DNA from: Enchytraeus crypticus
Taxonomy: Eukaryota > Annelida > Clitellata > Enchytraeida > Enchytraeidae
Assembly: GCA_905160935.1 (NCBI GenBank)
Contig: CAJHZI010000711.1
Location: 754,501-818,500 of the forward strand
DNA length: 64,000 bases
Direction of reading: 5' to 3'
Below, in pieces: positions 2,887 through 48,539 of this stretch (position 1 is its first letter; every line of letters starts with the position of its first letter). The position numbers were made by a program, and so were the translations under genes. The notes beneath the pieces are model-generated. The model did not search any database, had not been told where the DNA came from, and saw only the letters and a list, made by a program, of their open reading frames with translations.

Positions 2887-3025
2887 CTAGACGGGAGAAC
2901 CAGGCCAGGATACAACCTGCAGAACAACCAGCCTTGATTCTGAACTCGTCAACAGTTGAGCGGCCTCGCTATGAGTGGCGTCATCTAGCGAATGACTGTT
3001 AACTGATATGATTCTGTCTCCGCTC
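2887..3025 (-). CDS. LNX: LNX last coding exon: end of PDZ4 and stop
   Basis: After tttgtgtttag it opens SGDRIISVNSHSLDDATHSE, then AAQLLTSSESRLVVL and QVVSWPGSPV followed by TAG. LNX1 ends ITLTIVSWPGTFL, so the length and the SWPG motif match. The C-terminal SPV could itself act as a PDZ ligand. The acceptor with the first bases of the exon is repeated three times (see 3004-3188). Confidence 0.92.
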
Positions 3026-3188
3026 CTAAACACAAAACATTATAATATTGAAATTAGTAAATAATGATATAATTCTGTCTCTGCTCCTAAATACAAAACA
3101 TGATTGATATAGAAATCAGTAAATAATGATATAATTCTGTATCCGCTAAAAAATACAAAACATGATTAATATTGAAAATAGTAAATGA
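3004..3188 (-). repeat. Tandem triplication of the last-exon 3' splice site
   Basis: Units start at 3004, 3065 and 3127 (61-62 bp). Read on the minus strand, each contains ATGTTTTGTGTTTAG or a variant, then GAGCGGAGACAGAAT or a variant: the acceptor plus the first exon bases. The 3004 copy is the real one because only it continues into PDZ4. Confidence 0.9.
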
Positions 3189-3369
3189 TAATGATCGCCA
3201 GTCAAGTAAGACCTAGTGATCTGCCATAGTGGTGGCATAAGCTAAGTAGAATATAAAGTATTCATGGATAAAGTGGCAGTAAATTATGTCATATAATGCA
3301 ATTAATAGTGAAGAGAAATACGACCAGCTTAGGCTAAATAATAAAATGTCGTGCTCTGACGAGTAGAAT

Positions 3370-3625
3370 GTCTTAATAGCGTAGGGGTAACGTCATTAAG
3401 TTTTAATTGACATATCCAGAGGTGAATTGAACACTCGTGGGTTCGAATCCCAGCCGCGCTGATCTGAGAGTAAAATCTTGGACGTTCGATGGACTAGCTA
3501 CACGGAAAATGGAATAAATTGACTAACGGTTTAAACATGTTGTATTAAAAAGTGATAGATATCAATATAGTTGATCATTTCACTATAATGCGTGTTTACT
3601 TTTATTTATTTATTAGTATCAAACT
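3370..3625 (+). mobile_element. tRNA-derived SINE, family B
   Basis: An A-box-like TAGCGTAGGGGTAACG is followed by B-box GGGTTCGAATCCC. The 3' body has GCTGATCTGAGAGTAAAATC and AAGTGATAGATATCAATATA. The same body recurs at 21060-21275. Confidence 0.75.
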
Positions 3626-3815
3626 AGCGCTCTCTAACGAATTAAAATAATGAAATTGCGCTTTTTGACTAATTACGTGTATGGTAAATAATAAACTTTC
3701 GCTCTATGAAGAATTAGACTAAATAATAAAGTTGCGCTCTGTAGAGAATTAAATTAAAACAATAAACTAGCGCTCTCTGACGAATTAGGCTAAATAATAA
3801 ACTTGCGCAATGCGC
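3618..3815. repeat. Degenerate ~45-55-bp minisatellite
   Basis: Repeated variants of CTAAATAATAAACTTGCGC and CTCTCTGACGAATTAG; one more copy lies near 3330-3370. Confidence 0.65.
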
Positions 3816-4019
3816 ACCCTGGCGAGTTTTGCTAAAACTTGGCGCAGAGTTAATTTATCTGGGTTCTCATTGTACAGAGAATAGAACTTATAGTTCTACA
3901 AATCATCGGGAGTCATTAAATGAAATATGTGATTTAATTCACGGGTTGAACAAAATTCTGCGATAGAAATGAAATAAAAGCTAGCTATTATGTAAATAAA
4001 TTAAGTTTAACGTCTGTTT

Positions 4020-4090
4020 CCGTTATGACGAGGGATAATGTCACAGACGGTCAAGCTGAGATTCGAACCACTGGCTGTGTGGTTGTATTG
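4020..4090 (-). mobile_element. SINE-like fragment with B-box and GACGTTAAAC tail
   Basis: The minus strand reads GGTTCGAATCTCAGCTTGAC, then GTGACATTATCCCTCGTCAT and GGAAACAGACGTTAAAC. It lies a few bases inside the intron after the PDZ4 exon. Confidence 0.55.
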
Positions 4091-4097
4091 GCCTCAC

Positions 4098-4256
4098 CTC
4101 ATTCTACCGTCCAGCCCGGCAGGTCCATAATAGACAACGGACTTGACGTAGACAGGCACAGACCCGTGGCTGCCTCGATATCCCCCCACGATAGAGAACC
4201 CTAGCGAGCCTGCCGCTGATCTCTCCAAGGTTATTGTCTTCACTGTGTGGCACATA
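4098..4256 (-). CDS. LNX: LNX exon: start and core of PDZ4
   Basis: After ctgtatacag it opens IMCHTVKTITLERSAAGSLG, then FSIVGGYRG and VPVYVKSVVYYGPAGLDGRM. LNX1 has the same spacing from LELP to AGSLGFCIVGGY. Entry is phase 2, exit phase 2 at ATGAG/gtgagg. Its first 19 bases are the seed of the 55-bp acceptor array in the intron before it. Confidence 0.9.
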
Positions 4257-4545
4257 CTGTATACAGAAATAATCGGATTGGATTAAGTATTTCTTCACTG
4301 TGTGGCACATACTGTTTACATAAAATAAAAGGATTTGATTAGGTATTTCTTCACTGTGTGGCACATACTGTTTACAAAAATAATCGGATTGGAATAGGTA
4401 TTTCTTCACTGTGTGGCACATACTGTATACAAAAATTAAAGGACTGGATTACGTATTTCTTCACCGTATGGCACATACTGTATACAAAAAATAAAAGATT
4501 GGATTAGGTATTCCTTCACTGTGTGGCACATACTGTATACAACAA
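4238..4545 (-). repeat. Six tandem copies of a 3' splice site (55-bp units)
   Basis: Units start at 4238, 4293, 4349, 4404, 4459 and 4514. On the minus strand each has a T-rich stretch, then GTATACAG or GTAAACAG, then TATGTGCCACACAGTGAAG (unit 4459 has two changes). The 4238 unit is the functional acceptor of the PDZ4 exon. All six keep the AG. Confidence 0.95.
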
Positions 4546-4565
4546 ATAGACGTTGAACAAATAGA

Positions 4566-4800
4566 CAAAGAAAGTCATAACTTACCTAGGCAAGGAAAGT
4601 CATAACTTATGTAGGCAAGGAAAGTCATAACTTACATAGGCAAGGAAAGCCAAAGCTTACTTAGGAAAGAAAGCCATAACTTACGTAGGCAAGGAAAGTC
4701 ATAACTTACGTAGGCAAGGAAAGCCATAACTTACGTAGGCAAGAAAAGCCATAACTTACGTAGGCAAGGAAAGCCATAACTTACATAGGCAAGGACAGCC
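4566..4800 (-). repeat. Nine tandem copies of a 5' splice site (25-bp units)
   Basis: On the minus strand each unit reads CTTTCCTTGCCTAC/GTAAGTTATGG or a close variant. The nearest unit's donor ends the PDZ3 exon. Eight of nine units keep GTAAG; the unit at 4591-4615 has ATAAG. The array also runs into the last 11 bases of the exon. Confidence 0.95.
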
Positions 4801-4990
4801 AGAACTTCCAGGACGGCTTAAAGTTGATTTCTTCCACATCGTCGAGGGAGCAGGCAGGGGTGGGGGAGAGGTGAAGGAGATGGACCACGAGGTGGGATGT
4901 GATCGAGGCAGCCTTGAGACATTGGACGGCTTCATTGTGTGTCAACCCCAGCAGTGATAGACCATTGATAGATAGCAGAACATCTCCTTT
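4785..4990 (-). CDS. LNX: LNX exon: end of PDZ3 and PSWxxWLxLP linker
   Basis: It opens KGDVLLSINGLSLLGLTHNE, then AVQCLKAA, the end of PDZ3. A linker follows, ending PSWKFWLSLP, the counterpart of PSWVMWLELP before PDZ4 in LNX1. The exon leaves in phase 2 at cctat/gtaagt. The GTAA of the donor reads as an in-frame stop if not spliced. The last 11 bases are the first member of the 25-bp donor array that fills the adjacent intron. Confidence 0.9.
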
Positions 4991-5221
4991 CTGCCATATA
5001 AACAGCGTAAGATTGCTGTATTTTAGTATCATATTTTACCTTTTATTATCTTATTTATTGTCGATTTTGTTCTTTTTATTACTTTTTAAAATCACACACT
5101 ATAAACTAAATACTCACAATATAGGCCTACCTAAGTTTTTAATGTAGTGCGCTTAACGGCAATGTTTAAAAGCAGCAGGCTTTATAGAGACTTGACATCC
5201 TCGAGCTACCATTACAAAGAC

Positions 5222-5425
5222 TTCTAGTTTATTATCTTCTTCTGTGCACTGCCTAGTGGCAGGTTCAAGGTACATATTCATATTCAGATTCGGCTTTCTC
5301 GCTCCATAAGAGTACTCCTTAGATCAACAGGTTAATCCCTTCACAAAGTCTATGCCTTATCCATACCTTATGTAGCCTATGGCTTGGGAAAAGTATGGCT
5401 TCTGAGGTGGTTTCCCGTTGCCTTG
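5222..5425 (-). mobile_element. SINE, family C (shares its 3' tail with the LINE)
   Basis: In plus orientation: TGTGCACTGCCTAGTGGCAG, CTCGCTCCATAAGAG, AAAGTCTATGCCTTATCCAT and TATGGCTTCTGAGGTGGTTT. The same blocks occur at 19240, 24570, 31430, 53925 and 62210. The sense-strand end is CTGCCACTAGGCAGTGCACA followed by (AG)n. Confidence 0.8.
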
Positions 5426-5733
5426 CTCAGGGTTTGTTATAACGTAGCTTAATTATTCATCATCTCAGCACAGCTATAGACTGAGTCTGATAAATATATA
5501 CACCCAAACATGGAAGCATAATTATCGAAATACTTTAGACTCAGCTGCTAGACGCAGCATCATTGCTGTTCGTCTACAATAAATAATCACAAAAGTTAAA
5601 ATAAAATTCTAGTCAACTGCTGCTTCTGTGCTGTCATCTTCCAACGGAGAAATTGCTATTTCATCCGTCTGCTGTCATCTGGCGATTGAATCGGATAAAA
5701 TAGTTATTGTAATTTATTAGATCAATATCTCAC

Positions 5734-5856
5734 CAAAACACGCCCAGTATTAGCCAGAGAGCCATCTAATTGGACATTAGATATGTAAATGGGCGTGTCA
5801 TAACCACCACAGCCACGCCCTCCTGCTATACTCACACCCAGACTTTCTGCTGGATG
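5734..5856 (-). CDS. LNX: LNX exon: PDZ3 carboxylate loop and core
   Basis: The segment reads HPAESLGVSIAGG, then GGYDTPIYISNVQLDGSLA and ends GRVL. It aligns with LNX1 GESLGMTVAGG and DLPIYVISVEPGG. It has 41 codons in phase 0, acceptor ttcactgtag and donor ttg/gtgaga. The expected DGRI is NTGRV here. Confidence 0.9.
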
Positions 5857-5974
5857 CTACAGTGAAAATAAACAAATAAATTTAGGCAATTAATAGATAA
5901 TAAATTAATAACTCAATAATGTAATTAATAAATATTTGCAGGGGGCTGATTGTTCTTGGATTGTGTCCCGTGTT

Positions 5975-6065
5975 CGACCTTCTTTTTTCTCACCGGCTTT
6001 GACTTGTCTCAATAATGCTCGATGTTGTCACGGACTACGGTTGCACTCTAATTCTTGTCATATAA
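5975..6065 (+). mobile_element. Retroposon 3' end, TTG-tail family
   Basis: TTTCTCACCGGCTTTGACTT, then AATGCTCGATGTTGTCACGG and GCACTCTAATTCTTGTCAT; matches the copies listed for this family. Confidence 0.75.
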
Positions 6066-6273
6066 AACATTAATAAATATATTTGATTTAATTAAAAGGT
6101 AAGTTTTAAAAATTAACGTCTAATATAGGCCAAAGATATATAATAGATATAGAATTTCTTTATTCTATGAAGTAGGCTAATCTCGAAACTGATATGTAAT
6201 AGGCCTAGGTTCCCCGAAGATTTCTCATATATCTGCTCTATTTGCGCCGTGCGCTAGCTTTGACTCCACCCAC

Positions 6274-6480
6274 CTTATCAACACTGACGACTTTCTCGCG
6301 CCATACGTCAGGTATATATTCAGGCTCAGGCTTTGTTGGGCTAACATTGTTGTTGTTGTTGCTGATTCCGTAGAATTGATCGGGATAGTTGAGTAAGTGT
6401 CCTTCCAACATTCGCGATGCTGACACCCCAGAAACAGAGGAAGACCTAGACACAACTAGATGTACCTCGTCCGAGCTACC
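6274..6480 (-). CDS. LNX: LNX exon: end of PDZ2, linker, start of PDZ3
   Basis: It opens GSSDEVHLVVSRSSS (last strand of PDZ2; LNX1 RRVHLVVSR). A Ser/Asn-rich linker with a run of five Asn follows. It closes WREKVVSVDK, the first strand of PDZ3 (LNX1 CHEKVVNIQK). It has 69 codons, phase 0 at both ends, acceptor gacatacag and donor AAG/gtgggt. Confidence 0.9.
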
Positions 6481-6514
6481 CTGTATGTCAACATAGATAT
6501 TAAGTATGGATGTC

Positions 6515-6590
6515 AATCAATAAATCAATAAATCAATCAACCAATCAATCAGTCAATTCGCCAGTCAGTCACTTAGTCAATTGATCGCAC
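6515..6590. repeat. (TCAA)n/(GTCA)n array upstream of an LNX acceptor
   Basis: Imperfect tetranucleotide array starting 35 bp upstream of the acceptor at 6480; the gene-sense units are TTGA and CTGA. Confidence 0.85.
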
Positions 6591-6604
6591 TTACTTAGAT
6601 CTGA

Positions 6605-6730
6605 GCCCGATGGCTTATAGGTAAGTTGTTCGACAGCCTACCAGTAGTTGTAGGATTCAAATCCAGTACCCTCCCTGGTACTGACATGCTATCGAGAAGA
6701 AAACTGACGTTACATTTGGCTTTTGTTTTT
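6605..6730 (+). mobile_element. tRNA-derived SINE copy (diverged)
   Basis: A-box-like GATGGCTTATAGGTAAG, B-box GGATTCAAATCC, then TGACATGCTATCGAG and AAAACTGACGTTACATTTGG. Confidence 0.65.
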
Positions 6731-6750
6731 TATCTTATTATTTTGTCTGT

Positions 6751-6880
6751 AGCCAGTGGCGACAAAGGTAAGATACTCGACCACGGATCTGTATGTGCGC
6801 GGTTCTAATCCTGGGCTCGCCCATCACTGACATCGCTTTAGAGTAAGAAAACTGACCTTAAACTTGGTTTTAGCATTTGA
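6751..6880 (+). mobile_element. tRNA-derived SINE, family A
   Basis: AGCCAGTGGCGACAAAGGTA (A-box region), B-box CGGTTCTAATCCTGGGCTCG, then ACTGACATCGCTTTAGAG and a decayed GAAAACTGACCTTAAAC end. Confidence 0.8.
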
Positions 6881-6904
6881 TTTTATCTAAGTAAGCTGAT
6901 GTTG

Positions 6905-6990
6905 ATCAGAACAACAACAACAACAACAGCAAAAACAACAGAATTAGAGTGCTACTGTCGTCCATGACAACATTGAGCACAACGGATCAC
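6905..6990 (-). mobile_element. Retroposon 3' end with (AAC)n tail, TTG-tail family
   Basis: (AAC)n, then TTAGAGTGCTACTGTCGTCC and ATGACAACATTGAGCAC. Confidence 0.75.
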
Positions 6991-7519
6991 AGCATACAAC
7001 AGGGCCACTGTTAGTTCGTTCTCAAGCAGTGAGATATGATTTGACTGCAGAAATCTTGCAGGATTTCTCAAAACAGCAGAACTTATATTAGACATTAAAT
7101 CCATCAGACCTCCAGCTCTGACCAGCTAGGGGAGGGAACGTTCGCACTACTCGTCAGCTCTCATGGGTCCAATGACTCCGTCCCGGCAAATCAGCAGAAC
7201 TGCTAAGTCACATTTATATGCAGCCAAGGCTCCGAGCAATTTGAAATTAAATTACACTCGCGGGAGCAGTTTATGATACGAGTAATTTGACTGATCTGAT
7301 CAAAAGCATTAATAATATGCTCTATAAGCAACCGGTGAAAGCTGTTTACAACGTTGGGCTATTTAGCTCAAATGGCCTGAAAAATGCTCTGTTAATAAAG
7401 ATGTAAATCATTGAATACTTTCTGTACTGTCATTTTCTTAAGCAAAGCATGGAAATATTGAATTTTTTTTGCATATTAATTTCAGATTGTTTTCTTTTTT
7501 AACTACCATTGTAGTTTGC

Positions 7520-7524
7520 AGCCT

Positions 7525-7574
<50 letters not shown>

Positions 7575-7734
7575 GAGAGGAAGAGACAGAGAGAGAGAAA
7601 GCAAAGAAACACGTTTTAAAAAATATAAAGAAAAGAAAGAAAAACGCAAAGAGTGTTCCATTCCACTTGAAAATTGACTGAATCATGTAAATAAGACAGA
7701 TCCGAAGACAATTAGAGATAAACAGAGCAAGAAA

Positions 7735-7777
<43 letters not shown>

Positions 7778-7785
7778 AAGAAACA
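7520..7785. repeat. Two (GA)n microsatellites
   Basis: GA tracts at about 7525-7605 and 7739-7785; open frames across them are Arg/Glu or Ser/Leu artefacts. Confidence 0.9.
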
Positions 7786-8773
7786 GATTCTGCGTATGAG
7801 AATGGGAATTGCATAAAGAGAGGTATTCTAGAGAAATATAAATTTTATAAAAATATAAGAAACTTTTAAACCAGATTCATTTATGTCGAATTTATCCATA
7901 TCTATTTCTTAACTGATAAATTCAGCTAACATTTTTTACTGTGCCAATATAAAGCTGACAGTTTATAGTTTTGAATGCTAATACTGAAATAGATTCAATT
8001 CTCAAAGGTGACATCTCGTGAATGATCGGTACGATCGCTCGATGGTTATCAATCAAATAATTTTGCGCATTCGCCAGAGGGCGAAGAGCTCCGTGGGATT
8101 TAAATATGGAAATTTGAACAAGACATTTCACTCTATAGCACTAGCAAACCGCTACGATATTGATCGAACTCACAAAAATAATCTTACTATCGTTATATTA
8201 TAATTCACGTTGAATGCTCTTCTTGAATCTGATTATCATAGACATGTAATAGAAAACACAAAAGCGTGAAAATTGTAAAAAAGGAAACTAAAGATTGTAG
8301 AATTGGCATAATTAATTAGTAGAATATAACCTACTTCCGACTTATCCTGTCGTAAGAGGAAAATTAGCGGCAACTTAGTAAAACATTTATAAATTATATC
8401 ACTATTTAATTTTCCAGATATTTTAAACCTTCAACGGCTTTACAATCATGACATCCCTTAAGAGCAGTGAACATTCTCAGAGACTAAACTAGGGTCAAGA
8501 AATAAAGGGGGCATTTTGGGGGGCTACATTGTATTGCTTGCGTCTAGCCCGTATATAATTATATGAACAAGCTGGCGAAAGCTGGGGGCTGATCAACGAA
8601 TTTAGGGAGCTTAGCCCCCCACCTCTCACCAATCTCGTTCCTGAATATTCTAAACATTGAAATATTAAAAGAATTCGTAGAATTTAATTTTTGTAAACAA
8701 AAAAATAAATGTTTGTACTTTTTGTACAAAAAAGTATAATTTTGTACAGTTTATGTAAATTTCAAGGATTCAC

Positions 8774-8890
8774 CTGTATGATTTGAACTGCCTGTTCCTG
8801 ACTCCCAAACCTCATGTTCTCACCATTGATCTCCAGAATCTGATCATCAGCCTGCAGCCTCCCATCCCAATAGGCCACACCTCCTTCTAT
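8774..8890 (-). CDS. LNX: LNX exon: core of PDZ2
   Basis: Thirty-nine codons read IEGGVAYWDGRLQADDQILE, INGENMRFGSQEQAVQIIQ, the central part of PDZ2 including the alpha-2 helix. Phase 0 at both ends. The acceptor is gattgtgacag and the donor cag/gtgaat. Tetranucleotide arrays start 7 bp upstream of the acceptor. Confidence 0.92.
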
Positions 8891-8896
8891 CTGTCA

Positions 8897-9205
8897 CAAT
8901 CAATCAATATAAGCACTATAAGTCCGTCAGTGAATGAGTCAATGAGTCAGTCAGTCAATCAGTCAGTCAGTCAGTCAGCCAGCCAGTCAATCAGTCAATC
9001 AGACAGTCAGTCAGTCACTGAATGAGTCAATGAGTCAATCAGTCAATCAGACAGTCAGTCAGTCAGTCAATCAGTCAGTCAGTCAGCCGGACAGTCAGTC
9101 AGTCAGAAAGTGAGAAAGTCAGTCACTGAATGAATCAGTCAATCAGTCAGCTAGCCAGCCAACAAACCAGTCAAGCAGGCTGGCAGTCAGTCAGTCAAAT
9201 TAAAA
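8897..9205. repeat. (CAAT)n/(GTCA)n array upstream of an LNX acceptor
   Basis: A short CAATCAATCAA starts 7 bp from the acceptor at 8890. A long (GTCA)n/(ATCA)n array follows from 8927. Gene-sense units are CTGA and TTGA. Confidence 0.9.
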
Positions 9206-9547
9206 AGTAATATTTGTTTGCTTTCACATTAGTGTTAAGTGACGCTTGCTGAGCCCTATTAGACTAGTGTTATTGACTTTAATTGGGAGTTTGTGTTGTA
9301 ATTCGAAGATTGATCAATAATATATTGATTGATATAACGAATAACCTTACGTGTACAGTTTGTAGAGGCATTCAATATCCCCTCTAGATACTTGTACCTG
9401 AACTAACTGTAACTTGATTGAGTCAAATAGTGTTTTAAAATAATAGATTGATGCCCATTGTGGCTAAATCTGATAATATTTAAGAAATAAAATCATTCCG
9501 CGTAATAAATAATTTAATTGTACTGTCAATGTAATAGAGACACTCAC

Positions 9548-9578
9548 AATTTCCAGAATGAAGAGACCACACTGATTT
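9548..9578 (-). CDS. LNX: LNX 31-nt microexon of PDZ2
   Basis: Acceptor ctgatgtag and donor gtgagtg enclose one base plus ten codons, NQCGLFILEI. Joined to its neighbours it gives KLIQKR, NQCGLFILEI, IEGGVAYW, which aligns gap-free with LNX1 KLVRKV, DEPGVFIFNV, LDGGVAYR. It was located by predicting the missing length and phase, then finding the matching sequence. Confidence 0.85.
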
Positions 9579-9861
9579 CTACATCAGATAAAAAATTATT
9601 TATTTACTTAGTTGATGTTATTAGTAGGTTTGCTTATAGGATAAGCTGTATATAATGTTAAGAAATTGCATAATTACTTTCAGAGGATAATCTAAATATA
9701 ATTCTTTCATTTATCTTCAACTTGAATTTAGATTGACTATTTTTAAGTACTAGCCTGTTCAGAAATGATAAGATTTCTGCTTTGAAACGTTCTTTATCAG
9801 AATACTACAGCAGACAATGCAACTGCGTACATTTTCACATAGAAAGTTGTGCACAATTGGC

Positions 9862-9985
9862 TAAAGCCAGTGACGAATTCTGTACCGCGGATCAGTATGT
9901 GCCATGTTCGAATCCTGGGCTACCTCGTCACTAACATCGCTTTCGAGTGAGGAAACTGACGTTAACAATAGCTTTTTTACAATCG
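9862..9985 (+). mobile_element. tRNA-derived SINE, family A
   Basis: AAGCCAGTGACGAATTCTG, ACCGCGGATCAGTATGTGCC, B-box GTTCGAATCCTGGGCT, then CATCGCTTTCGAGTGAGG and AAACTGACGTTAAC. Confidence 0.8.
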
Positions 9986-10024
9986 CCGCCTTTATCATTA
10001 ATGGCAATGTTGCGTAATGTCAGT

Positions 10025-10110
10025 TAACCTCGTGTTGTGTCTAGATTGCTGAAAAACGTCAACGGTGAATTACACTTGTCGTAAAAGGCGATTAAGAGAA
10101 CCGAGGAAGG
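10025..10110 (+). mobile_element. Dispersed family E fragment
   Basis: TAGATTGCTGAAAAACGTCA, then GAATTACACTTGTCGTAAAA and GGCGATTAAG. The reverse complement of this block recurs at 14440-14560 and 46560-46770. Confidence 0.6.
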
Positions 10111-10347
10111 CCATAGGAAGCCACCTCAGAAGCCATATTTATCAACAAGAAAAGGGCTACATTCAGGTTCAAAAATTTCTTTGCCTTTTTGTTGATAGGC
10201 TTGGGCTTCGAAAGGCGAACCTACTACCATTACATCACTAGGTTTCCCTTGAAGCCTCTTACAGTGATTTATCTATTAAAGTTATCAATTCTTCAATATT
10301 ACACTAGAGTACTCGACATGATATCTCTACTGACAAACAGTGCTGAC

Positions 10348-10414
10348 CTCTTCTGAATGAGTTTTATTCCCAGCTGCTTCCCAGGAAGTTTACTCAGCGT
10401 TACAGTCAATATCT
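10348..10414 (-). CDS. LNX: LNX exon: start of PDZ2
   Basis: After ctgttgcag the segment reads EILTVTLSKLPGKQLGIKLI then QK, the first strand and carboxylate loop of PDZ2 (LNX1 has EEQLGIKLVRK). The donor is AAGAG/gtcagc. It needs a following exon that starts with one base and supplies about ten residues; the 31-nt microexon at 9548 does this exactly. Confidence 0.87.
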
Positions 10415-10954
10415 CTGCAACAGATAAAGACAAAATGTTACAATTTAAAACCATTTTCGCCGTACAATGAAGATGTCAACGATACTACGATAGACCAAAA
10501 CCTCTGCCATTACTCTGGATAAACAAATTGTGTAGCATCAGAGCGCAATGCTTTTATTTAATTAAATTGTCAGCTAATTATTTAAATTGTAATTGGTTGT
10601 GATCCAAAAGGTTCGCTAAAGGGCAAAAAATACATTGACCATTGTGAAAAATTTGTGCTTAAAATTTGTTTACTCACAAACTAGTTATTTATGGAAAATT
10701 TTTGACATATTCTTGTGGTTGGTGCCCAATAGTTTGCTATATTAGAGCGAGTCTCAAATTACTTCCGTATGTATTCGCGAAACATAACTCAACCAATATC
10801 GTAAAATTTTTTCGAAAGTATTATATTCCAAATAATGAACATAATTTAAACATACTCCAAATATGAAAACATTACTGCTGGAAAATAAAATCGTAGGCAT
10901 ATGGAAGACGATCTACTTGATTCTGTAACGAATAGAGAAGCTGACATAGATTAC

Positions 10955-11204
10955 CTTTGTTTTTGTCAGGATCTATGTAGCAGTCAGCGACATCGTAAGT
11001 GATTGATTGACTGTGGCAGGCTAAGTGTTTCTGATGACGATGCTGATGTTGATGATGATGATGATGAGAGATATGATGTTGATTTTGATGAAGGCAGGTG
11101 TCAGAAGGTTCTCGATACACAACGAGGCGACAGGTGGAGCCGCTGGAGCTGAGAGCATAGCAAGCTTCCATGTGAGTGCAGCGTGTTAGGTCAACGCTGT
11201 TCAC
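10955..11204 (-). CDS. LNX: LNX exon: end of PDZ1 and His-rich linker
   Basis: It opens VNSVDLTRCTHMEACYAL and continues through CRLVVYRE, the last helix and strand of PDZ1. A linker of about 45 residues follows, with a His/Gln-rich run (HHHHHQHQHRHQKH) made from a (GAT)n-like microsatellite inside coding sequence. The acceptor gatcag directly abuts a (TTGA)n array. The donor is AAAG/gtaatc. Entry is phase 0 and exit phase 1. Confidence 0.87.
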
Positions 11205-11570
11205 CTGATCAATCAATCAATCAATCAGCCAGTCTGTCAATAAATCAGTCAATCAATCAATCCATTAATTAATCAATCAATCAATCGATCAATCTATAAA
11301 AGAAAGAAATAAATAAATAAATAAATCAATCAATCAATTAGTCACTCAATCAATCAATCAGTCCGTCGATAGAATAATCAATTAATAAATCAATCAAGCA
11401 ATCAATCAATTAATTAACCACTTCATAACTTAATCGATCTATCAACAGTTAAAGTCTCAATATCTGATCAACTGAATGATTGTTTGATGGATGAATATCG
11501 TCATGCACTGAATCCATCAGTCAACAGTCAGTCAGTCAGAAAGTCAGTCAGTCAATAATTCTGTTAGTCA
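11205..11570. repeat. (TCAA)n/(CAGT)n array abutting an LNX acceptor
   Basis: The array begins at the acceptor itself (gene sense GATTGATTGATCAG). It continues with interruptions for over 300 bp, changing to CAGT units near 11520. Confidence 0.9.
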
Positions 11571-12649
11571 GTCAGTCATTTTTTCTGTCTGCCTGTCATT
11601 TTACTATATCTACATGCATTTATTTTTCCCGAGGAAAAATATTATGCTTATCTACTTCTTTTCCTATTGCAAAGATATAAAAATTATACTCCAATTTAAG
11701 AATATGTTAAAAATTATATTTTTGCTCCAAAGTTGGTAAATGTGCTATTGAACCACTGTTCGAAGAAGAAACGTTACCATTTATGTTATTTTAATAATAC
11801 AATTTTTTATCACTTCACGCCACAGTAATCATGCAAAATAATTTCACTAGTAGAGTGAAATTTGTAGCTTGCAGAAAATTGTTATACATATTATTTATAT
11901 TAGCTTCATTAGTTTTTATGGATATTTAATATAACGTCAGCTGCACAACGTAGTGGTTTTAGCTTTAGAACTTTGTGGAGGAGTGAGTACTATAAAGTAA
12001 TTTTAAAGTTTAGACAATCCAGGCTATTGTATGCCAGGAACTAATTAACTCTAGTTAACGATAGGGCTGTAGCAAATTAATGGCCATATTGGACTATACG
12101 TAATTTTATATTTATTAAGTACAAATTGTACTATAAAATTTGAGGATTGAAATTTTTCATGAAAAGAGGAAATATACAGTGGAGTTGAAGCAATTTTAAC
12201 ATTTAGAATGATTCCTACTTTCCCTCTCAATTCTTTCTAAGCTGCAATATTTTGCGCAGGAAATAATCTGAGAGAAATTTGTGGAATTATCGTTCATCTA
12301 AATCAATTACAGGCCGTGTGATGGCGCTCTTTCACGAATCTCCCGATCATGAATTTTAAGCCTCGAAAAATACTTTACTTTACTGCTATGAAACAATCGT
12401 GCCTACAAATCAATTATCAATTATTATTTTAATCTTTTAATCAATTAACAAATGAATTGATCACTCAGTCAGTCAGTCAATCTACATTAGCCTTCTACTT
12501 CCTGTCCGTTGTAAAAAGATATTGTTAGTCTTAAATTGAACATTTAACAATAAGCTGTAAGGATTAGCTAATAAGCTGTAAGGATTGTTGATGATTGAAA
12601 GGAATGGAAGAATGTTGCCGCGTTATGTTCAGTTTAGAACACAAGGAAC

Positions 12650-12735
12650 TAATGATGATGATGACGACGATGACGACGAAGATGATGGTGATGATGATGA
12701 TGACGCTGACGATGATGATGATGATGACGAGTCTT
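12650..12735. repeat. (GAT)n microsatellite
   Basis: Imperfect GATGAT/GACGAT tract; the Met-rich frame over it is an artefact. Confidence 0.85.
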
Positions 12736-12819
12736 AAATTTCTCAATTTACACTTTTCACTCCGTCTATTTGTTATTGTTACCAATCTCGGTACTCAAAA
12801 GCAATCAGCATCTTCATTG

Positions 12820-13020
12820 AACGAGAATGAAATGAAAGAACAATTTTCTATCAGAGCGGCCGATTTCTTCCACTTGGTGAACACCCGCTCGGCAGCCTTG
12901 GGGATCATTACCAGCGAGCGGTGGATAGAGAAAAGAAATGATTTAAGCGGATTAGCAGCGCCTCTGGCTAGAGAATTCCACAGTAATAAACTTATCGTCC
13001 TACAGTTGTAAACACTGGCC
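12820..13020. other. Unexplained GC-richer patch in an LNX intron
   Basis: About 200 bp with clearly higher GC than its surroundings. It is open on the plus strand as the end of a Met-rich frame and open for much of the minus strand. No domain, repeat mate or splice pair recognised. Confidence 0.3.
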
Positions 13021-13139
13021 CCACGGAGACGTAGAAGCGCCTCGAAAATAGTTTTACAAAAAAAGAATTGCTTCTAGAAAAATGAAGTTGTATTTTACTT
13101 TTTGGACTGTCTGATTTGGTTCTGAATTTGTTACACGGA

Positions 13140-13235
13140 GTAGATAGGTTAATGTTAAAGTTTTTTCATTCAAGGGATCTGAGTTCGATTCCAGGTTCAG
13201 TCAGAAGGAGAGTCAGTTCTAATGTTGGAGATTTG
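13140..13235 (+). mobile_element. Degraded tRNA-derived SINE
   Basis: B-box-like GAGTTCGATTCCAGGTTC preceded by GGTTAATGTTAAAG, followed by GGAGAGTCAGTTCTAATGTT. Confidence 0.4.
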
Positions 13236-13542
13236 TGATGTGCCAAGAAATTCTTCATTATTTCAAGGTTGGGTTAATCAGCTGTAATTAGTTTAGAGTA
13301 GGTTAGCTAACACTAGATAATGGAATGGATTCACCAGTAAATGTGGCATTTAATTGATTCTTATTATTCACGGGGATAAGATAGTTTTCTCAGAGAATGA
13401 CGCCCCTGCCCAGTAAATGTTACAGTTAAGGCAGAGTCATGAAGTTATTGTATACACTATTCGTATCGAATCCTAAGTCTACTATTTAAAAACGAACAGC
13501 GCGATTTAGCCCATTCTAAGAATAAGAGTTCATGGTGAATTT

Positions 13543-13612
13543 CAATCAATCAATCAATTGGAATTTAACGTCCGGTTCCTCGCCATAAGGCAATGTCAGG
13601 GACGTCGTTTAA
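13543..13612 (-). mobile_element. SINE 3' domain with (ATTG)n tail
   Basis: Minus strand: GACGTCCCTGACATTGCCTT, then ATGGCGAGGAACCGGACGTT and (ATTG)n. Same block at 39795-39866 and 52975-53040. Confidence 0.75.
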
Positions 13613-13736
13613 GTCTCAGTTTGACACTAGAATCATCAAACAGAAAGTCATACAATATTCGTAGGAACTGAACGATGAATTCTACAAGTAAATAAAAGGG
13701 TATGAGTGATAAATAGAGAATAGTTGAAGTTCGAAC

Positions 13737-13820
13737 CTCGAGTAGCTGGTCTCCAGGTAAGAGGCGACCATCTCTTGCTGCTGTACCGTTCTTGTAGACC
13801 TCTTGTACTATCACACTTAT
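13737..13820 (-). CDS. LNX: LNX exon: middle of PDZ1
   Basis: The segment reads ISVIVQEVYKNGTAARDGRL then LPGDQLLE, the strand/helix core of PDZ1. It aligns residue for residue with LNX1 (QHIYRDG, ARDGRLLPGD). Phase 0 at both ends. The acceptor is ccctcacag; the donor gttcgaac is poor and forms a palindrome with the preceding ctcgag. No better donor keeps the frame into the next exon, which begins VNSVDL. Confidence 0.88.
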
Positions 13821-13944
13821 CTGTGAGGGGGGGTACAGACAGGTTTAGCAAAATAACATTTAATCAATACAGCTCATATAGTGATATAGTAGTATTAATA
13901 TATGTAATATGAACATATTACTTGTACCAGTGTAATATATGGGC

Positions 13945-14131
13945 ATACATATTGGATAGATTAGTAAATGAGGTTATGCAAATAAGAATGGAATTAAAGG
14001 GAAGCAAAAACAGACCCAGATTTAGAATTTCAGATGATTTAAACATCCACTCGTATATGGACATGGAGAGGAAAACGGAAGATAGAGAATAGTGGAGGCG
14101 TTATATACCATGGACCTGCCGAGAGAGAGAG

Positions 14132-14140
<9 letters not shown>
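13945..14140 (+). mobile_element. LINE 3' fragment
   Basis: CCCAGATTTAGAATTTCAGA, then CACTCGTATATGGACATGGA and GGAGGCGTTATATACCATGG, ACCTGCC and (GA)n. It matches the last 150 bp of the element at 19652-20748, and runs antisense to the gene. Confidence 0.85.
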
Positions 14141-14170
<30 letters not shown>

Positions 14171-14186
14171 GGGAGAGAATACATAC

Positions 14187-14305
14187 CAGTGGTGTATCGA
14201 TACCCCCCACCACGCTGATGCCGAGGGGTTGACCTCCCCTGTAGATCTGTATTGTTGAGATCTGCTCCTCAGAGAGAGAAATCTGTTCACTGGGCGGCAG
14301 CATGC
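14187..14305 (-). CDS. LNX: LNX exon: start of PDZ1
   Basis: After tttctctag the segment reads SMLPPSEQ, then EEQISTIQIYRGG and the carboxylate-binding loop PLGISVVGG, ending DTPL at donor gtatgt. It aligns with LNX1 GEITSIKINR and GGSETPL. Entry is phase 1 and exit phase 0. Its acceptor is present three times in tandem (see repeat at 14301-14415). A (GA)n/(GT)n tract begins 6 bp past the donor. Confidence 0.9.
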
Positions 14306-14415
14306 CTAGAGAAATAAATATAATAACATCAATGAGACAACACGCCTAGAGAAATAAATATAATAACTTAATATCAATGAGACAACATGCCTAGAGAAAT
14401 AAATACAATACCCTA
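14301..14415 (-). repeat. Tandem triplication of the PDZ1-exon 3' splice site
   Basis: On the minus strand TTTATTTCTCTAG/GCATG or GCGTG occurs three times, with the exon-equivalent edge at 14305, 14345 and 14390 (40- and 45-bp spacing). The spacer is a variant of TTGTCTCATTGATGTTATTA. Only the 14305 copy leads into PDZ1 coding sequence. Confidence 0.92.
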
Positions 14416-14429
14416 TAAATACAATACCC

Positions 14430-14565
14430 TATTTGAGACTTTTCCATCCGATTAATTTTTTTAGAAATTTCTGGAGCTTAGAAGCTCATCATGGATCTTA
14501 GTGCTTTAGTCGTCTTCTACGACACGTGCAGTCACCGGTTGTTCAATTCTTCAAACAACACGGCC
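14430..14565 (-). mobile_element. Dispersed family E copy
   Basis: Plus strand ATGGATCTTAGTGCTTTAGT, then CGTCTTCTACGACACGTGCA and CGGTTGTTCAATTCTTC. Closely similar to 46660-46770. Confidence 0.65.
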
Positions 14566-14864
14566 ACAACAGGGGGCGATATATATCAATAGTATCACTC
14601 AGTGAAAATTCTACAGTAACTTAGCAAAAAACTCTGTGACAAATGCAATGCGTCATTGAATAACCATATGAACAAAAGTATGTTAAAAACACCCTCTGAA
14701 CATATTGATTATTTGATGAAGCGATCTGGTAAAATTAACAACAATTAATTAAACTACTAAATTGATTCAATTACTAAATCATTTAATTATTAGGTTCCTA
14801 AGTAGATTAAACTCCTAATTTATTGAATAATTGATTGATTCAGTAAACTTGAGGCAAGTTCTTT

Positions 14865-15012
14865 TAGTTCTAGAACTAGAACTAGAACTAGAACTAAAAC
14901 TAAAACTAGATTTAAAACTAGAGCTGGAATTAGAATTAGAACTAAAACTAGAACTAAAACTAGACCTAAAACTAAAATTAGAACTAAAACTAGAACTAGA
15001 ATTAGAATTAGT
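14865..15012. repeat. (CTAGAA)n/(CTAAAA)n minisatellite
   Basis: Six-base units just inside the intron after the second zinc-finger exon. The Leu/Val- and Leu/Glu-repeat frames over it are artefacts. Confidence 0.9.
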
Positions 15013-15022
15013 AGCCTGTTAC

Positions 15023-15132
15023 TCTTATCGCTGTACTGGCACTCATCGAGATGTCTATGAACTGCACTTCTGATGCCTCTGAAGGGGCAACCAACGTAGG
15101 AGTTAATGCAGCTCATCTGCGTTCCCTTACAT
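15023..15132 (-). CDS. LNX: LNX exon: second zinc-finger segment
   Basis: The acceptor is gacaacag and the donor is gtaaca after GATAAGA. The segment reads CKGTQMSC, INSYVGCPFRG, then AVHRHLDECQ. The C-x-C-x-H-x-C layout looks like a TRAF/SIAH-type zinc finger and is better formed than the equivalent stretch I recall for LNX1. Entry is phase 2 and exit phase 1. The linker from here to PDZ1 is short and has no NPxY motif. Confidence 0.85.
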
Positions 15133-15382
15133 CTGTTGTCATAAATACGCAAGAGATAAATTGATAAATAGATGATAGGTAATGCAGAAAAATTCTATGT
15201 GTTAAACACAGAATAAATAGTAGTTTAGATTCAATTCAATAATAGATTTAATTCAATCAATAATGCTATCAATTGAATTGAGTCATGGGTAAAATGAAAT
15301 AATCACAACAAAAAAGCAATTGTTTTATAATTAATAATTGAGCAATTAATTAATAAAAATGAATTAATAATTAGCGGAGTAC

Positions 15383-15475
15383 CTGTAGATAAGGTGAACC
15401 TGTAGATCTCTTCGAGGCAAAACCTCCTGACAGTGTTCACTGTTAGGACACGTGATCAACAGTTTATCCAGCAAC
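15383..15475 (-). CDS. LNX: LNX exon: first zinc-finger segment
   Basis: The segment reads LLDKLLITCP, SEHCQEVLPRRDL then QVHL. It aligns without gaps to the region just after the RING in LNX1 (LLNKLLVTCP, REHC, DLEHH). It enters in phase 2 (first base completes a Lys codon, as in LNX1) after gcttag and leaves in phase 2 at ctacag/gtactc. A near-duplicate ctacag/gttcac lies 14 bp inside the exon. A (TTGA)n array abuts the acceptor. Confidence 0.88.
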
Positions 15476-19539: not shown

Positions 19540-19632
19540 GACCTCTTTTTGCGAGTCGGCTTTGATTTGACTCAATATTAACCTACTCGATGTTGTCATG
19601 GATGACAGTAACACTCTAATTGTTGTTATACG
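19540..19632 (+). mobile_element. Retroposon 3' end, TTG-tail family
   Basis: GTCGGCTTTGATTTGACTCA, then CTCGATGTTGTCATGGATGA and ACACTCTAATTGTTGTTATA. It is followed at once by the target site of the LINE. Confidence 0.75.
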
Positions 19633-19651
19633 TTATATATGTTGCAGTTAG

Positions 19652-20108
19652 CTTAGAATATGGAAATGACGTTTTTGTATGCTTTGTAGACTTCGAGAAG
19701 GCCTTTGACAGGATTGATTGGATAACGATGATGAATATCTTAAAAAGAATAGGAATTGACTGGAGAGATAGAAGACTAATTTTGAACTTGTACATGAATC
19801 AAAGAGCAGTAATCAAAATCCAACAAGAATACTCAGAAGAAGGTGCAATAGGACGTGGAGTTAGACAAGGTTGTAGAATTTCGCCGCTGCTGTTTAACAT
19901 TTACGATGAGGCAATGATGGAGGAAGCCATGGAAGACTTGGAAGAAGGAATAATAGTAGGAGGGAATTTGTTACAAGATATACGATTTGCAGATGACCAA
20001 GGAATGGTAGCGGGCAGCGAGATTGGATTGCAGAAGATAATGGATAGGCTGAATGATACGGCCCTAAGATATGGCATGAAGATTAATATAAAAAGACCAA
20101 GGTTATGA
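19652..20108 (+). pseudogene. Reverse transcriptase fragment, palm domain
   Basis: About 150 residues covering RT motifs A to C, in one frame from the truncation point. The catalytic FADD replaces the more usual YADD. The frame shifts near 20105, where the next segment (VNITINGTKLEQVRSFKYL) continues the same protein. Confidence 0.88.
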
Positions 20109-20740
20109 GAGTGTCCAATAATAAAGGCGAAGTTAATATCACAATAAATGGTACGAAATTGGAACAGGTAAGGAGTTTCAAATATTTGAGTCATACTATA
20201 ACCGATGATGGGAAATGTGAGACAGAAATATGCAGTAGGATTGCACAAGCAAAAGCGGCCTTTGGTAGTAGAAAAAAACTATTAACAAAAAGTCTAAAGA
20301 AAGACACAAAGACAAAGATAGTGAAAACTTTGGTTTGGACCACGCTATCATATGGATGTGAAAAATGGACCTTAAGAAAGGAAGATATTAGGAAACTGGA
20401 GGCATTGGAAATGTGGATTTGAAGAAGAATTGAGAGGATTAGCTGGACTCAAAAGGTTACAAATGAGGAAGTCCTGGAGAGAGTTGGCACAGATAAACAG
20501 TTGATAAATGTATTAAGAAATAGAAAGAAGAGATGGATAGGACACATTCTAAGGGGGGAAGGTCTATTAAAAAGGTCATAGAAGGTAGAATGTAAGGAGA
20601 AAGAGACAGGGGCAGGCCGAGATTAGGTATGTTAGATGATTTAAGGACCCACTCATATGTGGAAATGAAGAGGAAGGCGGACGACAGAGAAGAATGGAGG
20701 CGTTATGTACCATGGACCTGACAGTAGGCAGTGCACTAAG
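20105..20740 (+). pseudogene. Reverse transcriptase C-terminal part, frame-broken
   Basis: It continues the RT thumb and C-terminal region. A TGA interrupts at about 20420, after LEALEMWI, and matching sequence goes on through RIERISWTQKVTNEEVLERV and RKKRWIGHIL to REEWRRYVPWT. Both breaks are seen directly. Confidence 0.85.
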
Positions 20741-44362: not shown

Positions 44363-44581
44363 TCGGTGGAATAACTCGGTGCAATTCATTGCAATCAAGT
44401 ACAACTCAACAGTACTACGCTAGAAGTAGAACCTAGAGAGCCTCAATTCAATTATTTTCTAAACCAAGAGCAGCTAATAGAAATGGAGTACAAGTATAGG
44501 AGCTTCCAAGACCACTGAATTTTCCGCATTTATCTTTTTTGAAAACTTTTGATTATTAACAACCATTCTCAATAGAGATCT

Positions 44582-44870
44582 AGCATTATTTGTACAATAG
44601 CATTATTTGTACAATAGCATTATTTGTACAATAGCATTATTTGTACAATAGCATTATTTGTACAATAGCATTATTTGTACAATAGCATTATTTGTACAAT
44701 AGCATTATTTGTACAATAGCATTATTTGTACAATAGCATTATTTGTACAATAGCATTATTTGTACAATAGCATTATTTGTACAATAGCATTATTTGTACA
44801 ATAGCATTATTTGTACAATAGCATTATTTGTACAATAGCATTATTTGTACAATAGCATTATTAGAAATGA
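44582..44870. repeat. 17-bp array, essentially perfect
   Basis: Unit TAGCATTATTTGTACAA repeated about 16 times with no visible change, ending in two diverged copies. Confidence 0.97.
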
Positions 44871-46775: not shown

Positions 46776-46945
46776 GGGTAAGATTAATTACTATAATAGT
46801 TATTATAAAATCAACCAACTTTTATTTCCGGGAGTAGACTAACTCCTTGTAGTTTACAAGTTAATATCATAAGCAAAAGCTGTTACGTAAGCTACTTTAC
46901 TAGTTTTAACTTTATCTAAACTATTTCAAATAAAATTTGACCTAC

Positions 46946-48432
46946 TTGCGTGGTGACAGAATCATCTTAAATGATGAGCCAAGTACCGGTTTATCCACGA
47001 TGACACTGGTGTTGTTGCTAGCATGTTTTATACTGTTGTTGCTTTCGCTGCACAGACTCAAACTGTTACTCTTTCCGTTACTATTACCAGCTGGCGGTCC
47101 ACTGCTTGCTAATGCATTGCTAATGTTTAAACGTTCGCTACACGAGCTGCTGGGTGGACCTTTGCTACATCTGCCTGTATTGCTATTAGCGTATCCATTT
47201 CCTTGACTTCCTACTCCAGAATCCTTATGGAAACTTACTCCGCCATCGAAACTTTCGGAGTAATTTATGTGGCCAGTTTTAGGTTTTGAAATGTCCAGAT
47301 ATCTGTCATTCATGCAGTGGTTGTTTATTCCGGAATGCGTTTGCCTTCGCCGTATCAAATTCTTTGTAGGAATGTTACCACAAGTGTTAGTGCTATTGTC
47401 AAACCTATGATTTGATTTATCGGGTTGTCTGATGGTAGATAAATAGGATGGAGTTAAAATAATACCGTCAGCGCATTGCAGTGAGGACCCCACATTAGGA
47501 TCTTGTCTAGTTCTGCTGCTGCACGTGTCGCTGCTGCAGCTGCTGCAGCTGCTGCTGCTGCCGCTCAGCTGTGATAAATAGCCTGCGTCACTGCTGGGCT
47601 GTGTGACATCATTAATTAAGACGTCATCGATATGTGCTAACTGTGATTCGTCATAGATTATTGCTGTTTTATACGCAAATTCCGATACAATATCATCGAC
47701 AATTGTCAAATCGTTATTTCTCCTATCCACTGAACTGGTGCAGCTTCTTTGGGCTGCTTCCATGTCGAAGCACTGAGTGAAATTCGCTGAGTTCAGGACG
47801 GACTTGTAATCAGTGGATTCTTTGGAAAAGTTCATTGACCCGTGTGGGGCTGGTGTTACCACTTCTGTCTGACAAAAAACTGGATGAACTGAGTCGTCGT
47901 TATTCCAGTTCTCCACTTCAACAACAACAGTTCCATCCTCATCCTTATTGCCTGAACACCTAACCTCAGCGCTTTCGTTACTCGCCTTGATTGATGACAA
48001 ACCTACTGCTCTCTCATCAAACTCGTTTATAGTACCTGTAATGGAACTATCAGCTACTTTACAAGCCTCCATCGGGTAACTATCTGTGGAGTCGATCGCA
48101 ATGCACTCGCTCTTTTCTAAGTTTTCAACACAGTCTTTAGCTTGTGTTAGATCGTGTATGAGATCTTCCATATCACACTTGTTCAAAGAAACATGCGAAC
48201 AGTTTTCGTGATCTGATTGGTTTGCGATGAAGTTTTTGTTGTATCCATTTCCAAGTTTTAAAGAGGCTGCTAAAGGAAGGATTGAATTAATACATTCAAT
48301 GCCTTCATAGACATGGTCCTCAAGTCCTAAAGTATGTCGACATTGCGTAGGCATCACTGTGACGTCATCAATATTAGAGCTGTTAGGAATGACGTAGTCA
48401 ATGTTTGAGTTATTTACACAGCAGGTTTCCAT
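46946..48432 (-). CDS. Large Ser/Asn-rich coding exon, unknown identity (possible 5' exon of the LNX-type gene)
   Basis: The longest open frame in the window: 495 codons from an ATG with an in-frame TAA six codons upstream. The composition is protein-like, unlike the many repeat-derived frames. I recognise no folded domain and no RING. Visible features are a Ser/Cys-rich run (about residues 290-310), DAGYLS at 282-287 and DSGVGS at 404-409. Both resemble the beta-TrCP phosphodegron DSGxxS, the second exactly. The frame ends MILSPRK-stop, but 2 nt before that end of frame lies CGCAA/gtaggt, a 7/9 match to a donor, leaving phase 2. The first zinc-finger exon of the LNX gene at 15475 needs phase 2 and would restore a Lys codon. 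A single-exon gene or a separate gene remain possible. No promoter element was identified. Confidence 0.7.
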
Positions 48433-48539
48433 GACTTTTAACGAAATTTAAGATTCTCTGGTATTTAGATTTTTAATAAATTAAATAATTCTAAAAATTA
48501 AAGTAAATATATAATTACTAACTAATAATTATCTAACTC

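Follow-up and report, generated by a model that had tools for sequence, protein, structure and literature searches.

What is to be made of an intron whose two ends carry many copies of its own splice sites, which of these sites would have to be used for its gene to yield its protein, and how might such an arrangement have come about? The questions are raised by a locus of Enchytraeus crypticus, positions of which are given as those of the window, i.e. the whole 64,000-nucleotide stretch of DNA that was analysed.

An intron with arrays at both ends

The intron concerned lies between exons G and H of a gene similar to those for LNX proteins, and it is confirmed to carry, at both ends, tandem copies of its own splice sites. 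Its limits, 4257..4784 on the minus strand (528 nt), are those set by the outermost donor and the outermost acceptor, and the original prediction of a 528-nt intron there, with a PDZ3 exon on one side and a PDZ4 exon on the other, was correct in coordinates and content. In the donor array (4562..4807, minus strand; Tandem Repeats Finder) a unit of 24-25 nt, in which the end of exon G is copied and GTAAGTTATG or something close to it comes next, is present nine times. GTAAG is kept in eight of the nine, with GT at 4784, 4759, 4734, 4709, 4684, 4660, 4635 and 4585, and the broken unit, at 4610, has ATAAG. The spacing is 25 nt with one unit of 24 nt, a small departure from the nine 25-bp units, eight with GTAAG, that had been described. 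What had been considered to be some 25 bp of other sequence between the two arrays rather looks, by eye, like a decayed tenth donor-type unit, with Tandem Repeats Finder giving 9.9 copies.

The acceptor array (4232..4548, minus strand; Tandem Repeats Finder) comprises six CAG acceptors together with copies of the start of exon H. All six keep CAG, within the motif TA(T/A)ACAG, after which come the opening 20 nt of exon H or a copy of them; the exon-like first bases are at 4532, 4477, 4422, 4367, 4311 and 4256, at spacings of 55, 55, 55, 56 and 55 nt. Three of the five inner copies agree with the real exon at 20/20 nt, the copy at 4532 at 19/20 and that at 4477 at 18/20. As the sequence upstream of the innermost acceptor, 4532, is unlike that of the other five, there are six acceptors with five full units upstream of them, and not the six 55-bp units first counted; the count of eight donors facing six acceptors stands. 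Both arrays extend into the flanking exons, to 4807 and 4232 respectively (Tandem Repeats Finder). The innermost donor and acceptor enclose a 53-nt GT..AG stretch (4533..4585, minus strand), which may be what is left of an older, short intron. Comparison of donor with acceptor units gives a similarity score that is reached by 71% of shuffles, and the 25-nt and 55-nt units are accordingly unrelated. Probes of 30 nt with a junction at their midpoint, one for each of the two, detect copies that match at as many as 28/30 letters; this value is also reached by 3.7% of 600 random probes (within 1 kb, one side), which indicates that the window overall is rich in tandem repeats.

Identity of the gene

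Judged by homology, the gene is an LNX orthologue. A 466-residue protein built from nine exons has LNX proteins as its best matches, with 370 proteins at E <= 0.001 among 7995 scored candidates. The top named matches are molluscan, under the names ligand of Numb protein X 2-like, E3 ligase LNX or similar, at 40-42% identity; among the 120 matches listed P0028 is first, with 43%, and identity to the window protein is at most 46% for all of them. When a query of 120 residues was used, Capitella had 56% identity over it, and P0003 had 62% over 43% of it. Four PDZ domains are present in LNX order, PDZ2 by tblastn match only, and VSWPG.. is at the end. An earlier assignment to MPDZ, a domain of which was the first PDB match, was dropped when the longer protein matched LNX along its length.

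The exons are all on the minus strand. PDZ1 is encoded by exons A (14187..14305, the start of the domain, with an exon start that is without independent support), B (13737..13820, with a weak assigned donor, GTTCGA) and C (10955..11204, the end of the domain). The first part of PDZ2 is a tblastn match at 10341..10415 whose exon limits are not fixed, and the domain continues in exon D (8774..8890) and ends in exon E (6274..6480), which also has linker sequence. PDZ3 begins in exon F (5734..5856), and its second part is in exon G (4785..4990, 206 nt) along with the linker ...PSWKFWLSLP. The first part of PDZ4 is encoded by exon H (4098..4256), whose 159 nt are a multiple of three, and its remainder, with the stop codon, by exon I (2887..3025). 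Further upstream, tblastn matches to the zinc-finger region of LNX are at 15456-15382 and 15185-15024 (minus strand), and these together with the four-PDZ matches place the LNX-like gene at 2887-15456. A RING finger was absent from the 64-kb window on pattern search and on tblastn with 11 LNX proteins; it may be encoded outside the window, and several LNX proteins among the 120 matches listed are likewise without RING entries.

Splicing of exons F to I gives a single open frame with a terminal stop. At the G-H junction the window protein reads PSWKFWLSLPIMCHTVKTITLERS, and 14 other aligned rows, among them molluscan, annelid, nemertean, hemichordate and mouse LNX proteins, run through it ungapped, e.g. 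Capitella with PSWKFWLSMPIVCHSVKTIQLDRG. From this ungapped alignment to LNX orthologues, the outermost donor and acceptor are correct at the protein level. In a protein tree, whose set contained no lancelet LNX, the window protein and that of Capitella are joined at 82/84 (unstarred); groupings of the window protein with molluscs (p-AU 0.26) or with two deuterostomes (p-AU 0.152) are not rejected.

Possible copies at the same acceptor in another lineage

Two short predicted proteins from ENA contigs, P0003 and P0004, have their last 63 residues in common, exon H included, and their upstream parts run into repeats of the type VCHTVKS..LPLYYS, which correspond to the start of exon H plus the end of the preceding intron. 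P0004 has three copies, the real one included, 18 residues apart as read from the residues; P0003 has, on our own reading, six with the real one included, 16-19 residues apart, four of them diverged or in another frame. The two proteins suggest that copies are present at the same LNX acceptor in another animal, copying at the nucleotide level being deduced from protein, and six versus three copies similarly suggests change of copy number. Twenty proteins of a set of 25 were read (P0003 to P0022). Besides these two, six begin at or just past the exon edge and so cannot show an array; P0008 and P0010 are spliced across, P0009 reads about 20 residues upstream with no copy, and nine represent other domains or are unclear. 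P0006 and P0007 begin at the same exon edge, which weakly suggests that the intron position is older and shared. As regards a common origin of the two acceptor arrays, the P0003 copy seems to resemble the real exon beyond its first 20 nt, but in the window unit such further resemblance is not significant (equalled by 9% of shuffles), and nor is that between the intronic part of the unit and the core (13% of shuffles); shared descent of the two arrays is conceivable.

Consequences for splicing

When all 48 pairs of eight donors with six acceptors were translated, the full protein resulted from one, the outermost, as the original prediction had it. The 42 pairs that involve one of the seven inner donors all meet the same in-frame TAA one codon past the junction. 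With the real donor and the inner acceptors, four of five pairs stop at codons 126, 141, 144 and 178, and in the fifth, that with acceptor 4422, the frame is lost and the stop comes at codon 215, where the normal protein has its stop at 208. The claims that extra donors would bring in an in-frame TAA, that the acceptor one unit upstream would shift the frame and that the 111-nt case would meet a stop can all be seen in these translations. Skipping of exon H would keep the frame and damage PDZ4, so that a form of the protein with damaged PDZ4 is possible. Against the U1-complementary consensus, the real donor and six of its copies match at 7/11, the innermost at 8/11 and the broken one at 6/11. 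In the five acceptor units there are variable columns at 2/20 of the exon part and 13/36 of the intron part, a difference that is not significant (Fisher P 0.057).

It is conceivable, if unlikely, that the arrays act as a regulatory ladder, on which controlled use of inner sites leads to a premature stop and nonsense-mediated decay, or exon H is skipped in frame, and the amount of full-length LNX is thereby tuned; decoy sites and nonsense-coupled regulation had figured as possibilities in the original prediction. The uniform stop after every inner donor and the failure of inner acceptors to give full protein would suit such control, as would the retention of eight of nine donors and all six acceptors, an exon H of skippable length, the apparent copies at the same acceptor in another animal's LNX and the ability of human boundary tandem repeats to alter splicing, as described in the part of PMC2812944 available. 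However, selection on the donor motif is not evident, its GTAAG letters deviating in 1/45 cells versus 15/180 elsewhere in the unit (Fisher P 0.21, not significant), the predicted RNA fold of the intron is ordinary (z -1.0) and the lancelet arrays dealt with below are reported, in the available text, as not disturbing splicing (PMC3087553, PMC3902484).

Other arrays in the gene and in the window

Intron G-H is not the only site of this type in the gene. The acceptor of exon I has a second acceptor array (3004..3186, minus strand; a 62-nt unit x 3), in which the acceptor and approximately the first 22 nt of the exon are copied; use of its inner AGs, which precede the exon-like bases 3086 and 3145, would lead to stops ahead of the normal end. 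That of exon A probably has a further one (14304..14410, minus strand; a 45-nt unit x 2.5) with a weak exon part; the acceptor first bases are 14390, 14345 and 14305, i.e. two extra copies 40 and 85 nt upstream of 14305. Within 14304-14432 the 45-nt array abuts a 16-nt repeat. Elsewhere, a tetranucleotide repeat at 11208-11414 lies upstream of the exon C acceptor, about 4 nt from it, and another, at 8921-9150, upstream of that of exon D at a distance of about 31 nt, and a hexanucleotide array (14870-15011) follows the zinc-finger exon match at 15185-15024 so closely that the donor of that exon is not assignable.

Is this an excess? A copy of at least 24/30 letters within 1 kb is found for 4/17 assigned boundaries, three of them secure, and the other 13 score 14-18, within the null. 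The candidate AG and GT sites of the exon matches at about 10415-10341, 15456-15382 and about 15132-15020 have no copy of 20/30 or better save two, AG 15516 and GT 14997, both within simple repeats; with these five further boundaries counted as being without an array the proportion is 4/22, the P values below covering the first 17 only. On random placement of the gene's six arrays, with at most 35 coding bases covered, the proportion of 5000 trials in which four boundaries or more are struck is 0.0004, with a mean of 0.40 boundaries, and a local probe null, in which 6% of 400 intronic 30-mers are near-copied within 1 kb on one side, gives P 0.016 for 4/17. As intron G-H was chosen for its arrays, a fair test has to leave it out, and the two figures then obtained disagree, with P 0.016 for at least 2/15 boundaries hit by random placement and P 0.23 for 2/15 with the local probe null. 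These values do no more than suggest that arrays are in excess at junctions. The window does have a general source of tandem duplication, as it contains 55 merged arrays of period at least 10, microsatellite-like ones left out, amounting to 13.6% of its length.

The search for other genes beyond 14500 involved a Pfam scan of 95 open frames, being 109 of at least 58 aa less four removed by a low-complexity filter and 10 by hand. It gave one reverse transcriptase and two weak matches (E 0.0036 and 0.0072), and so no other gene usable for testing more junctions. The reverse transcriptase fragment (19620-20422, plus strand; Pfam RVT_1, E 3e-15), with a further open frame at 20087-20422, is perhaps of a LINE-like element. 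An open frame at 46942-48447 (minus strand) with 501 Ser/Asn-rich codons and without a Pfam match is possibly a large exon of another gene. At 44581-44862 a 17-nt unit is present in 16.6 copies at 100% identity, and this array is perhaps young. In the window Rfam at gathering scores gave no match and a tRNA scan no gene.

Origin of the arrays

The favoured interpretation, and a rather likely one, is that minisatellites of the type termed 'mirages' have been built up from both junctions, and that these are tolerated with the outermost sites being chosen, their use being judged from protein homology. Tandem duplication of a segment that runs across an exon end into the adjoining intron would have taken place independently at the donor (25 nt) and at the acceptor (55 nt), with subsequent expansion of both arrays and their divergence by mutation and drift. 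Duplication would presumably have been due to replication slippage or unequal exchange. The original proposal of splice-site duplication by slippage at both ends is upheld for tandem duplication of both sites, slippage being one presumed cause. Given use of the outermost sites, all copies between them are intronic and the protein is unchanged; the arrays are probably a harmless by-product of unstable repeats.

What would make the outermost sites win is presumably exon definition. According to the part of PMC9225289 available, where the hosts studied were other ones, it takes over with introns above 200-250 nt, sites closest across the exon then being preferred, whereas in short introns preference is for the sites closest across the intron. 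At 743 nt for the intron ahead of exon G, 528 nt for intron G-H and 1072 nt for the one that follows exon H, the lengths here fall in the exon-definition range, and so use of the outermost pair is predicted. Some inner splicing is nevertheless plausible, given that the innermost donor has the best U1 match (8/11 vs 7/11) and given the short-intron rule (PMC9225289).

A broader proposition, which is improbable to about the same extent as the regulatory one, is that introns of distant animals have repeatedly grown by way of minisatellites across their junctions, the array at this LNX acceptor having been retained, or formed anew, in two lineages and the two-ended form serving as a natural test of the mode of recognition. 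If it were true, exon definition would lead to protein and intron definition to a premature stop.

Less probable again, and distinctly so, is that the arrays are remains of the birth of the intron, which on this account arose or grew by tandem duplication of coding sequence with splice signals. It has precedent in the published models of Rogers 1989 and Zhuo 2007, as cited in PMC3087553, in the mirage model of intron gain put forward there and in the human novel introns derived from boundary repeats (PMC2812944), each as given in the available text, and the innermost pair leaves just 53 nt. However, the donor unit is of another length than the acceptor unit and no more similar to it than shuffles are, which makes one exonic tandem array an unlikely source of both ends, and the start of P0006 and P0007 at the same exon edge hints weakly at an older shared intron. 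Mis-assembly of a repeat, with either copy number or whole arrays artefactual, has a parallel in a lancelet mirage that was rebuilt from traces where the draft was wrongly assembled (PMC3087553, in the portion available) and the copy number could be wrong here, but with units that differ by separate substitutions and one-base length changes and with arrays that join the correct exons it is very improbable as an explanation.

Comparison with known systems

For amplification of both junctions with use of the outermost sites, the most pertinent comparison is with the mirages themselves, i.e. tandem repeats across exon-intron boundaries that were named in lancelet Adh3 and later found in globin genes (PMC3087553). 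At intron G-H too, tandem units span the exon-intron boundary and many have splice signals. According to the part of the globin account available, units there are of 10-72 bp and about 150-160 bp, the data suggest regular splicing, and one globin gene has six versus three mirage units in two haplotypes (PMC3087553). In lancelet PGBD5, 60- and 108-bp repeats overlap splice sites at two places, and the mirages of Adh and troponin C are said to give no aberrant mRNAs (PMC3902484, in the text available). As described in the available portions of the two papers, the mirages of Adh3, BflGb6, BflGb9, troponin C and PGBD5 resemble intron G-H in having boundary-spanning units in which AG or GT is often kept; their copy number varies, the 5′ or the 3′ boundary is affected, and PGBD5 has two arrays per gene (PMC3087553, PMC3902484). 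The difference is that intron G-H has an array at either end, with units of 25 nt and 55 nt that are unrelated to each other, and no intron with arrays at both its ends figures in those portions of the mirage accounts (PMC3087553, PMC3902484).

Boundary tandem repeats are also known from human segmental duplications, where 162 alignments were reduced on manual inspection to 27 intron modifications, and where variable repeats have the same position, at exon-intron boundaries, as the arrays of intron G-H (PMC2812944, in the part available). There they are exon-derived and RNA-supported, with novel introns or changed splicing, whereas the G-H copies are intronic, at both ends and known from DNA (PMC2812944, as above). 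No described example was known to the author of the original prediction; the lancelet and human cases are close precedents. An intron arrayed at both ends was not met with in the literature searched, which covered few subscription journals, and a report of one may exist.

Other comparisons are looser. The schemes of intron gain of Rogers 1989, Zhuo 2007 and Gao and Lynch 2009, in which a single duplicated segment reportedly supplies both intron ends, share with intron G-H the creation of additional splice signals by tandem duplication of a local segment; here donor and acceptor are not in copies of the same unit, being in 25-nt and 55-nt ones. Tandem alternative sites of the NAGNAG and GTNGT types likewise have several candidate sites adjacent, but involve single-residue changes, whereas at intron G-H neighbouring sites are separated by 25 or 55 nt and no pair with an inner site leads to full protein (PMC2875228, in the portion available). 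The introns of Lucina haemoglobin were considered as a parallel and set aside, the repeats described in the available text being interspersed and not junction arrays (PMC4732748).

A function of the arrays beyond that of a tolerated by-product is possible. If the arrangement is borne out in RNA, its 48 natural pairings of splice sites, of which one is productive and in which donor strength differs little (6 to 8 of 11), would make intron G-H a ready competition assay of exon versus intron definition. It would also suggest how introns lengthen at their ends harmlessly, since junction-spanning duplications add intronic sequence only, given use of the outermost sites, and a two-ended case would join the lancelet and human boundary repeats. 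Intron G-H is, then, a two-ended form of a structure for which lancelets provide described cases and human genes looser parallels.
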